Assembly (NCBI GenBank): GCA_001602645.1
Contig: LUYE01000006.1
Location: forward strand, 1-64,000
Length of the DNA stretch: 64,000 nt
Origin: Methanosarcinales archaeon Methan_01
GTDB taxonomy: Archaea > Halobacteriota > Methanosarcinia > Methanotrichales > Methanotrichaceae
Direction of reading: 5' to 3'
Shown: piece after piece, positions 1,959 through 9,467 of the stretch
How the letters are laid out: the number at the start of each line of letters is the position of its first letter
How positions within the stretch are numbered: the stretch's first letter is position 1
Program-made: the position numbers and the translations under genes
The notes under the pieces: generated by a model
The model's input: the letters and a program-made list of their open reading frames with translations, nothing else
Told to the model about the DNA's origin: nothing
Databases searched by the model: none

Positions 1959-3148
1959 TGGAGCCGTCGGAATCCCCACCCCCAAGGGCAGGAGAGCTGA
2001 TCCCCCTCCTCCGGAAAAACCTCGATCGGGACTGGGGCTGCAAGGTCTTCTTCGTCGGGGCTTCGGTCCTGGGGATCAGGCTCCCCAGGGAGAGGGCGGG
2101 GATGATGACCGATGAGGACGCCGCGCGGGTCAGGTCCGTCCTGGAGATCCGCGCCCCATCCATCAGGATGGAGGAGATCGCCGCCGTCATCCTCCTCGGC
2201 GACGAGACTTTCATCGAGATGAGACTCCCAGACCTGGAAGCCCTTCTCCGGCGTCCTCGCCCTGTAGAGGAGCCCTGCGACCTCGCCGAGATCCTCGACG
2301 GCTTCGCCCGGTCGGGGCCGAAGGTGGCCGCAAAGTCGCCGGCCTCGGGAAGGAGGTCGGAGGTTCTGGCCATCGGCAAGAGGGGGAGGTACGTCCGGGC
2401 CCGGATGCCGCGCTCTGAGGCGAAGGACGTCGCCCTCGCCCCCACCATCCGGGCGGCTCTGGCCCGATCCGGCGGCTTCGTCGAGGCCGGAGTCGGCAGG
2501 AGCGTCGTCATAAGGGAGGAGGACCTCCGGGAGAAGGTGAGGCGCCGGAAGGTCTCGACCCTCGTCGGCATCGTCCTCGACACCAGCTTCTCGATGGAGG
2601 AGGCTTCCGAGGCGACGAGGAGGGTGGTCTTGGAGCTGCTGAGAGATGCCTACCAGAGGAGGGACCGGGTAGCCCTCGTCTCCTGCTCGGGGAGGGAGGC
2701 GGAGGTGGTAATCCCCTTCACCCCGGCGGCGGCGACGGCGAAGAGGCACCTCGACGGGATCGAGTACGGCGGGACGACGCCCCTGGCGAGCGGCCTCGCC
2801 AAAGGCTCCGCCCTCCTCGCCCGGGAGCGGGATAAAGAGCCCTCAGCGATACCGATCCTCGTCCTTATCACCGACGGGTCCGCCAACGTCCCCCTGGAGG
2901 TGGCGGCGGACCCCGACCAGGAGGTGGAGGAGGTAGCCCGGGAGCTGAAGAGGTCTGGGGTCCACCTCCTGGTGGTGGACGTCGGCTCCGGGGGCTCAGA
3001 GCTGGCGAAGAGAATCAGCGCCGCCGCCGGGGGGAGGTACGTCAAGACGAATCGGCCCAGCCAGGAGGAGATCTACGCCGCCATCAAGGAGGAGCAGCGG
3101 GGGGCGGCAGGCCTCGCCGGGGCCGAGGGCCGGGAGAGGGAGCGGTAG
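1958..3148 (+). CDS. VWA-domain chelatase partner (ChlD/BchD-like)
   Basis: The protein has 396 residues and a von Willebrand A domain in its C-terminal half. The metal-ion-dependent adhesion site DTSFS lies at residues 208-212, followed by the TTPLASG and LVLITDGSAN segments typical of chelatase subunit D. Unlike full-length ChlD there is no intact N-terminal AAA+ module: residues 1-110 look like a remnant helical region. In this family the D subunit forms a ring with subunit I and bridges it to the catalytic subunit. The ATG overlaps the stop of the ATPase gene (TGATG), implying translational coupling. The C-terminus is rich in Arg/Glu/Gly. Confidence 0.85.
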   Translation: MEPSESPPPRAGELIPLLRKNLDRDWGCKVFFVGASVLGIRLPRERAGMMTDEDAARVRSVLEIRAPSIRMEEIAAVILLGDETFIEMRLPDLEALLRRPRPVEEPCDLAEILDGFARSGPKVAAKSPASGRRSEVLAIGKRGRYVRARMPRSEAKDVALAPTIRAALARSGGFVEAGVGRSVVIREEDLREKVRRRKVSTLVGIVLDTSFSMEEASEATRRVVLELLRDAYQRRDRVALVSCSGREAEVVIPFTPAAATAKRHLDGIEYGGTTPLASGLAKGSALLARERDKEPSAIPILVLITDGSANVPLEVAADPDQEVEEVARELKRSGVHLLVVDVGSGGSELAKRISAAAGGRYVKTNRPSQEEIYAAIKEEQRGAAGLAGAEGRERER

Positions 3149-7514: not shown

Positions 7515-7535
7515 GATCGATACCGTTATCTACTC
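7515..7535 (+). promoter_or_regulatory. Shared-type promoter, copy 1 of 3
   Basis: GATCGATACCGTTATCTACT is the first of three near-identical promoter blocks, each 70-77 bases upstream of a lamin-tail-domain gene. TTATCTA is the TATA-like element. Confidence 0.6.
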
Positions 7536-7604
7536 AAAAGCTCTCTACGGTGGCGGGTTCCGGAGCCGTCTGGGACCATCGGATGTGTACGGGGGATCTG
7601 GATT

Positions 7605-8072
7605 ATGAGAATTGCGTCTGGAATCTTGGCATCTCTAAGTATCGTCGTCGCATTATCGGCGATCGGCGCAGGGTCCGTAGTGATAAACGAGGTGGAGCTC
7701 AACCCCACCGGTAACGCCACCAAATGGGCGGAGCTTTACAATGGAGGAGATGAGGCCGTCGAGATCTCCGGCTGGGTCGTCACCATTGTCAACCTCCCCT
7801 GGTCCGGGATGATCGTCGTCCCCGACGAGACGGTCATCCCCGCTGGAGGGTACTACGTCGCCGAGGGCGATCCTCAGTGGAGTCAGGATTATCAGGGCTC
7901 CGTGACCCTGGTGGACGGGATGAGGATGAAGGTCGATGAGAGCCCCCTGATAGTGGACGACGGTGACAGCGACTTCACCTACGGCCGCTACCCCAACGGC
8001 CTCGATACCGACCAGAGGACCGACTGGAAGCTCATGAAGGCCACTCCCAGGGCCGAGAACGCCCTGAGCTGA
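7605..8072 (+). CDS. Secreted lamin-tail-domain (LTD) protein, copy 1
   Basis: This small exported protein of 155 residues has a signal peptide (MRIASGILASLSIVVALSA) and a single LTD-type immunoglobulin fold. The domain opens with VVINEVELNPTG, continues with WAELYNGGDEAVEISGW, and closes with YGRYPNGLDTDQRTDW. LTDs occur on bacterial and archaeal surface proteins and nucleases, usually as accessory binding modules; a protein made only of an LTD is probably extracellular or cell-wall associated. I chose ATG 7605 over a longer frame from 7494 because the signal peptide begins here and a GGGGG tract lies upstream, as in both paralogues. Confidence 0.85.
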   Translation: MRIASGILASLSIVVALSAIGAGSVVINEVELNPTGNATKWAELYNGGDEAVEISGWVVTIVNLPWSGMIVVPDETVIPAGGYYVAEGDPQWSQDYQGSVTLVDGMRMKVDESPLIVDDGDSDFTYGRYPNGLDTDQRTDWKLMKATPRAENALS

Positions 8073-8217
8073 TCGCCTGATCCGAAGGGTCAGGAGCGGC
8101 TCGATAGGAGTCGTTCGGCCCTTACTGCCGGGGGAAGAGGGCGACTCTCCATCTTTCAGACCATCGAGACGATCTCTCCGAGGTCTCCGGGAGAGGCTCG
8201 ACCTTCTGCCCTCCCTC

Positions 8218-8237
8218 GATCGATACGGTTATTTATC
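8218..8237 (+). promoter_or_regulatory. Shared-type promoter, copy 2 of 3
   Basis: GATCGATACGGTTATTTATC differs from copy 3 by a single base. TTATTTAT is the TATA box, 77 bases before the ATG of LTD copy 2. Confidence 0.65.
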
Positions 8238-8313
8238 TGGAGATCTTTGAGATCGCCATCTCTGACGGGCTGCCCCGGGCAGGCAGATCTCGGATTGGTG
8301 GGGGTTTTTCATT

Positions 8314-8787
8314 ATGAAAAGAAAAAAGGTTAGACTCCTGGCGTCCCTGCTGGGAGTTTTGGCGTCGTCGGTGGCGTGTCTTGGAGCCGTCGTTATCAAC
8401 GAGGTGGAACTGGACCCGCCCGAGGGCGGGAACGAGTGGGTCGAGCTTTACAACAATGGCGCAGAAGACGTGGACGTTAGCCGCTGGAGCGTCTGGATCG
8501 TCGACCAGAATCCAACCTGGACCGGGGTCATGAAGATCCCTCAGGATACGGTGATGGGGGGGGGAAGCTTCTTCGTCGCCGAGGGAGACAGAAAGTGGAT
8601 CCACGCCACAGGAACCGGGACGGTGATCCTCAAGACGGAGGAGGGGGTCGTCGTCGACGAGACGCCCCTTTTGGACGACAACAGCAACAACTTCTTCACC
8701 AACTACCGCTACCCCAACGGGGTGGACACCGACCAGAGGTCCGACTGGGTCTTCGGGAGGGGCACCAAGAACGCCCCCAACGCCTGA
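8314..8787 (+). CDS. Secreted lamin-tail-domain protein, copy 2
   Basis: The protein has 157 residues: a basic N-terminus (MKRKKVRLL), a hydrophobic signal peptide ending near CLGA, and then one LTD. VVINEVELDPPEG, EWVELYNNGAEDVDVSRW and YRYPNGVDTDQRSDW mark the start, core and end of the domain. The mature protein is acidic. It is clearly a paralogue of the flanking genes at 7605 and 8947, but the upstream spacer (about 240 bases) shows that each gene is its own transcription unit with its own copy of the promoter. Function is unknown beyond a surface location. Confidence 0.87.
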   Translation: MKRKKVRLLASLLGVLASSVACLGAVVINEVELDPPEGGNEWVELYNNGAEDVDVSRWSVWIVDQNPTWTGVMKIPQDTVMGGGSFFVAEGDRKWIHATGTGTVILKTEEGVVVDETPLLDDNSNNFFTNYRYPNGVDTDQRSDWVFGRGTKNAPNA

Positions 8788-8850
8788 TCTCCGATCAGCT
8801 CCTCTTCTGAGGTATGGCCCGGCCTTGGGATCCGAAGCCGCCATATTCCC

Positions 8851-8870
8851 GATCGATATGGTTATTTATC
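8851..8870 (+). promoter_or_regulatory. Shared-type promoter, copy 3 of 3
   Basis: GATCGATATGGTTATTTATC, with TATA element TTATTTAT, lies 77 bases before the ATG of LTD copy 3. Conservation of the outer GATCGAT as well as the TATA box suggests a common regulator site or recent duplication. Confidence 0.65.
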
Positions 8871-8946
8871 CGAAGATCGCTCTTATTCAGGAGGCCGGGA
8901 CGGATGAGACCCGGACCACAATCTGAGGTTAATGTGGGGGTTATTT

Positions 8947-9432
8947 ATGAAGCTCATATTGGAGTCGTTCTTAGCATCTCTTGCGGTCCTCGCCGCGCTA
9001 GTATCGGGATCTGTCGTCGTAAATGAGGTGGAGCTGAACCCCTCGGGGGATGGAAACGAGTGGGTGGAACTCTACAACTCCGGGGAAGAGCCGGCGGATA
9101 TAGGTCAGTGGAGCGTATCGATCGAGGAGGCCCTGTCGTCGTCGGGAACCTGGACTGGAGTGATCCCGATACCGAAGGAGACTTCGATCTCCCCCGGGAG
9201 CTATTACGTCGTCGAAGGGGACCGCCGCTGGATCCACGGGAATAACGGAACGGTGATCCTCAGGACCGATTCTTGGGCGGAGGTGGATAGAACACCAGCC
9301 CTCAGCGACGAGGAGGGGAACGACTTCTCCTGGTCCCGCTACCCCAACGGCATCGACACCGACACCAGATCTGACTGGGCCTTCATAAAGGCAACGCCGG
9401 GAGCGGAGAACGTTCTGAGGGCGGCGTTCTAG
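8947..9432 (+). CDS. Secreted lamin-tail-domain protein, copy 3
   Basis: The protein has 161 residues from ATG 8947, chosen over ATG 8932 because a GTGGGGG tract precedes it as in the sister genes and the signal peptide MKLILESFLASLAVLAALVS then starts correctly. The LTD shows VVVNEVELNPSG, EWVELYNSGEEPADIGQW and WSRYPNGIDTDTRSDW. Relative to copies 1 and 2 it has a few extra residues in the first loop (SSSGTW). A stem-loop terminator follows at once. Confidence 0.87.
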   Translation: MKLILESFLASLAVLAALVSGSVVVNEVELNPSGDGNEWVELYNSGEEPADIGQWSVSIEEALSSSGTWTGVIPIPKETSISPGSYYVVEGDRRWIHGNNGTVILRTDSWAEVDRTPALSDEEGNDFSWSRYPNGIDTDTRSDWAFIKATPGAENVLRAAF

Positions 9433-9451
9433 CCCCGGCAGCCCTGTGGGA

Positions 9452-9467
9452 CTGCCCTTTCGGGCAG
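9452..9467 (+). terminator. Stem-loop after LTD copy 3
   Basis: CTGCCC and GGGCAG form a six-base stem around a TTTC loop, 19 bases after the stop codon. There is no long T-run. Confidence 0.45.

Follow-up and report, generated by a model that had tools for sequence, protein, structure and literature searches.

Old tandem lamin-tail-domain genes in an archaeal genome probably keep their family's ancestral core promoter

Why do three neighbouring genes, whose protein products share only about half of their residues, carry nearly the same 20 bases in front of them? The question is raised by the window analysed here, a stretch of 64,000 nucleotides at the start of contig C29 from an archaeal genome of 2.6 Mb that is 98.95% complete, in which three genes for lamin-tail-domain (LTD) proteins follow one another on the same strand. 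The likeness of their promoters could reflect a regulator of their own, a controlling leader RNA, recent copying or simple retention. We consider it probable that the trio consists of old tandem paralogs, each keeping the core promoter that the family had from the beginning, and that the strong core they have in common leads to their joint expression. The three genes are the following.

7605 to 8072, forward strand: LTD copy 1, 155 aa, with a hydrophobic N-terminus and a single lamin tail domain
8314 to 8787, forward strand: LTD copy 2, 157 aa, with a hydrophobic N-terminus and a single lamin tail domain
8947 to 9432, forward strand: LTD copy 3, 161 aa, with an alternative start at 8932, a hydrophobic N-terminus and a single lamin tail domain

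A sequence-only reading of this DNA had described three single-LTD genes, and the Pfam profile agrees: copies 1, 2 and 3 score 44.6, 43.3 and 45.3 bits against PF00932, all above the cut-off of 34.3, with copy 1 entered minus its first codon and copy 3 entered from the alternative start at 8932. Measured against copy 1, protein identity is 47% for copy 2 and 48% for copy 3, and the hydrophobic N-termini suggest that the proteins are probably secreted. An AlphaFold model made for copy 3 (25 sequences; pLDDT 79.2, pTM 0.74) matches eight solved structures at E of 0.001 or below, every one of them a lamin entry, two of these being complexes in which the matched chain is unchecked. The top match is a human lamin tail (E 6.8e-5; TM 0.43 by query and 0.63 by target), and the fold predicted by the model is Ig-like and of the lamin-tail type. 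A search of solved structures by sequence returned one match only, at chance level (E 0.7). LTD relatives occur in 47 of the 50 Methanotrichaceae genomes searched.

Each of the three genes is preceded by one block.

7515 to 7534, forward strand: BRE/TATA core promoter of LTD copy 1, block kept in nine of nine genomes of the genus
8218 to 8237, forward strand: BRE/TATA core promoter of LTD copy 2, block kept in five of nine genomes of the genus
8851 to 8870, forward strand: BRE/TATA core promoter of LTD copy 3, block kept in nine of nine genomes of the genus

The blocks begin exactly where the sequence-only reading had put them, at 7515, 8218 and 8851, and the distance from block end to ATG is 70, 76 and 76 bases for copies 1, 2 and 3, within the 70-77 bases that it had given. 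The one consensus that it had proposed for all three holds for copies 2 and 3, both of which read GATCGATAnnGTTATTTATC, but not for copy 1, whose block GATCGATACCGTTATCTACT is off by three bases. Copy 1 differs in its TATA half (TTATCTAC), as it does in all nine genomes, so promoter strengths may differ among the trio. With up to one mismatch allowed, GTTATTTATC has four matches in the window against 0.83 expected, a count that none of 100 shuffles reaches, and the copy 2 and copy 3 blocks account for two of the four.

Could the likeness result from recent copying only, by gene conversion or fresh duplication, with selection playing no part? Three tandem paralogs with similar promoters would suit such an origin, but the surroundings of the blocks speak against it. 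Among the three window paralogs the blocks are on average 83% identical. Codon positions 1, 2 and 3 reach 65, 68 and 44% and fourfold sites 38%, while identity is down to 30% over the 20 bases that follow the block and to 23% (ungapped) over the 60 bases that precede it. The earlier statement that the promoters are more alike than most coding positions thus stands. Taken over the whole genus, the blocks of orthologs are on average 89-92% identical and those of paralogs 79%, with a minimum of 65% for the latter. The copies themselves, furthermore, are too old for this explanation. In a tree of 62 rows, 35 of which are relatives from other genera, copies 1, 2 and 3 each form their own clade (support 100/99, 100/99 and 100/97), which places the duplication as old and the split of the copies before the genus. 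Recent copying as the sole cause is thereby extremely improbable.

The retention of the trio points in the same direction. All nine genus genomes searched contain the three-gene cluster, and in each it adjoins an open reading frame with the same YgiQ-like start, as judged by eye, the YgiQ assignment having been tested in the window. The G000-G005 orthologs have dN of 0.09-0.13 against dS of 0.29-0.67, which indicates purifying selection. A fixed search expression finds the block at copies 1, 2 and 3 in nine, five and nine of the nine genomes. In the picture of triplicated genes with cloned promoters that the sequence-only reading had drawn, the element of selection is supported, while the cloning is not: these are ancestral core promoters of old paralogs and not fresh copies.

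Two side observations concern the cluster itself. Between copies 2 and 3, four of the nine genomes (G001, G002, G003 and G008) carry two co-directional genes. The smaller encodes about 284-311 aa. The larger, of about 465 aa (628 aa in the frame listed for G003), we take, by eye, to encode a B12-binding radical SAM protein. In five of the nine (G002, G004, G006, G007 and G008), copy 1 has ACG in place of its ATG start, at L078:3568-3570 and at the same place in L074, L076, L079 and L080; in these genes an in-frame upstream ATG overlaps the GTGGGGG element described below, and the start may have moved.

What kind of element is the block? A motif was learned de novo from 142 other upstream regions of the same genome (the window and a further 220 kb, with the LTD trio excluded and the gene starts called crudely). 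The resulting general promoter motif, tcAAaAnntTTATATat, reaches a log-likelihood of 135.7, compared with 61.2, 63.4 and 52.6 in three base-shuffled sets, which as controls received less effort (12 random seeds each against 40). Each of the 23 LTD blocks in the genus matches this motif at an identical offset, scoring 11.1-13.8 bits, and the conserved letters of the block coincide with its BRE and TATA positions. The 23 blocks were collected by a fixed search expression that demands ATCGAYA and TTATYTA, so the invariance of those letters is not independent evidence. The median LTD block score is reached by 6.3% of the 142 best sites. By its motif, the block is an archaeal BRE/TATA core promoter from the strong end of the genome's range.

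This identity suggests how the trio would be expressed. TFB would bind the BRE half of the block (TCGAYA) and TBP its TATA half (TTATYTA). The transcript would begin about 20 bases past the block, with a leader of roughly 45-60 nt whose end is formed by a G-rich ribosome-binding site, GTGGGGG in most cases, and the start codon. Because all three promoters share the same strong core, the three genes are likely expressed together and at similar levels, which would yield a set of small secreted Ig-like envelope proteins. A separate idea, that an alternative TFB reads the block as a variant BRE, is not favoured; a single TFB gene, with both repeats in one frame, is found in the genome.

An ordinary core promoter might be expected at many genes, which raises the question of how private this version is. 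In the whole 2.6 Mb genome, the 20-base block with up to two mismatches has two matches, namely copies 2 and 3, and the block of copy 1 is missed because it lies three mismatches from the sequence searched. A 15-base form occurs exactly at four places, three of which are the LTD trio. The block was also considered as a common promoter type and rejected as such: with up to two mismatches the 15-base form has 133 matches against 87 for its reverse, and only four are exact. Equally rejected was a block at every LTD gene. The genome has nine LTD-domain matches in eight frames, the block is present at three of the nine, and the upstream regions of the other LTD genes are, by eye, without it. On the same contig, but beyond the window, two more single-LTD genes form a second pair (L012:1536-2036 and 2284-2700, reverse strand); they are of another type and likewise lack the block.

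The comparison extends beyond this genome. Across nine genomes, CGAYANNRTTATYTA-N45..75-GGGGG yields 24 rows at 23 distinct places, all of which precede LTD trio genes, and its reversed-pattern control yields 0. A looser form, CGATANNRTWATWTA, which was widened after reading 21 family loci and is hence not blind, and which misses the TATA half of copy 1, occurs at 54 places in 50 family genomes, against 15 for the reversed control. Of these places, 31 lie within 200 bases before LTD genes (26 genomes), 21 of them in other genera; 17 of the 50 genomes, including all six of g9, have no match. The patterns were designed with the LTD promoters in view, and their matches before LTD genes are partly by construction; the informative part of these searches is the scarcity of matches away from LTD genes. 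It is well supported that the LTD family has this promoter version almost to itself and that selection acts on it, and the block does not behave as a common genome-wide promoter unrelated to LTD genes, the form in which the sequence-only reading had envisaged its own failure.

The remaining 23 places of CGATANNRTWATWTA are not before LTD genes, and a single conserved stretch of non-LTD sequence is common to four of them (in G000, G004, G005 and G006). At L019:1501-1610 (G000:C58:69108), and also in L231, L232 and L233, a CGATAATGTTATATA promoter precedes this stretch, which has no long open reading frame. No Rfam match was obtained for L019 and L232, the two tested, and a small RNA gene is possible.

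Does the near-privacy of the promoter version mean that a dedicated regulator is at work? The block may also hold a site for such a protein, GATCGATA being partly palindromic, and the trio would then be a true regulon. This would agree with the near-absence of the promoter version elsewhere in the nine genomes, with its enrichment at LTD genes of other genera, and with the presence of ATCGA in 23 of 23 leaders, although the expression that picked these leaders demands ATCGA. The letters in question, however, fall at the BRE position of the general motif, and the first LTD genes of genus g8 keep CGATA in nearly all cases but not the GA before TCGATA (mostly CTCCGATA). A paper on FilI/FilR of M. 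harundinacea (PMC3991700), whose main text contains neither 'motif' nor 'consensus', offers there no site for comparison. Since the block is an ordinary core promoter, likeness alone is no proof of a shared regulator, and we consider a dedicated one quite unlikely.

Retention of the core promoter by old paralogs can also be viewed where it fails, as the loss of the copy 2 promoter in four genomes provides a natural comparison. The search expression did not find the copy 2 block in G001, G003, G006 and G007 among the nine genomes, and these four form one branch of the LTD tree. The copy 1 stop and the first codon of copy 2 in the alignment are 95-169 bases apart in these four and 261-294 in the other five, and in the four the best site of the promoter motif before copy 2 scores only 4.2-7.8 bits. 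The likeliest reading of these distances is that a deletion put copy 2 under the promoter of copy 1; in G006, which retains a weak site (7.8 bits), copy 2 may have a promoter of its own. Such a deletion would be in keeping with a requirement for joint expression, though it is no proof of one.

Between block and gene, the window contains the following predicted leader elements.

7553 to 7589, forward strand: predicted 5' leader of copy 1 with a candidate hairpin (weak, z -0.47)
7590 to 7595, forward strand: CGGGGG, Shine-Dalgarno-like, before copy 1 (GTGGGGG in most orthologs)
8256 to 8297, forward strand: predicted 5' leader of copy 2 with a candidate hairpin (z -0.03)
8298 to 8304, forward strand: GTGGGGG, Shine-Dalgarno-like, before copy 2
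8895 to 8914, forward strand: candidate hairpin close to where the copy 3 mRNA is predicted to begin (z -1.54 for the leader as a whole)
8934 to 8940, forward strand: GTGGGGG, Shine-Dalgarno-like, before copy 3, overlapping the in-frame upstream ATG at 8932

Control might reside in the leader RNA, with a hairpin at the 5' end that protects or regulates the mRNA and GTGGGGG setting translation. A hairpin is possible between block and start codon in most leaders (predicted structures, by eye). The 23 LTD leaders are more stably folded than shuffled sequence (mean z -1.31, with 14 of the 23 below -1), and they also surpass 19 further predicted leaders (mean z -1.11 vs -0.29, p 0.012; folding energy per base -0.337 vs -0.211, p 0.0006), with p values that are too small because the rows are related. 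In copy 3 the hairpin pairs in 84.1% of cells, compared with at most 54.0% when slid. The same hairpin, however, shows no covariation, as column by column 0 pairs have changed on both sides and no measure rises above shuffles. Its letters differ between copies, window copies 1 and 2 fold only weakly, and an Rfam search of the leader gave no match at E up to 1. The hairpin in the leaders of the trio is therefore suggestive only. GTGGGGG, in turn, is present in 21 of 23 LTD leaders, and a sample of 254 gene starts contains it three times, twice at LTD genes. Genus g8, however, has an ordinary Shine-Dalgarno sequence, GTGGAGG, at the same place in seven of the nine first LTD genes read, so GTGGGGG is probably a variant ribosome-binding site. 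On balance, control by leader RNA is unlikely.

A more ambitious proposal would combine variant BRE, TATA, hairpin leader and G-rich ribosome site into one family-specific cassette, through which a single signal sets three co-assembling Ig-like envelope proteins in filament-forming methanogens. Its promoter part is kept over much of Methanotrichaceae; as a whole we find it very doubtful. The trio promoters make a solid, though not very unusual, example of a long-established gene family that has kept its own promoter. As such, the findings tie a version of the core promoter to one gene family across a genus and, in part, across a family, and they draw attention to uncharacterised, probably secreted LTD proteins in Methanotrichaceae, a major group of acetate-using methanogens.

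How does the locus compare with known systems? Like other archaeal BRE/TATA core promoters, the LTD blocks have an A-rich BRE, three free bases and a TATA element. They differ in having CGAYA in the BRE half where the general motif has AAaA, in being nearly private to one gene family and in that the start site is here a predicted one; in Methanolobus psychrophilus, BRE/TATA elements are predicted about 19-22 nt from the start for 81.6% of primary transcripts (PMC5378194). The proteins resemble other prokaryotic PF00932 members in scoring above the Pfam cut-off and, for copy 3, in a predicted fold nearest to lamin tails. Unlike Hlac_1867/ComA and Hvo_1477, in which the LTD has a metallo-beta-lactamase or nuclease partner (PMC5118699), the trio consists of stand-alone domains with a hydrophobic N-terminus. 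An LTD protein elsewhere (L014:2123-3094, reverse strand) has a weak staphylococcal-nuclease-like stretch (16.9 bits, below the cut-off of 21) and recalls the haloarchaeal nuclease Hvo_1477. The word 'lamin' was not found by a word search in the sheath paper PMC11576556, within the text searched. Among the publications listed by the literature searches, none deals with the LTD cluster, judged by titles and abstract openings. Finally, promoters shared among paralogs are not unique to the LTD trio, as a second case with CCGAAATnGTTATATATC leaders exists in this genome at G000:C78, where two genes have, by eye, nearly identical promoters and leaders (L029:1501-1575 and L030:1501-1585). By eye, both paralogs seem to encode dockerin plus substrate-binding proteins. 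They resemble the trio as paralogs that have retained a common promoter and leader, and differ from it in their canonical CGAAA BRE, in their AGGAGG ribosome site and in comprising two copies that lie 7.8 kb apart.
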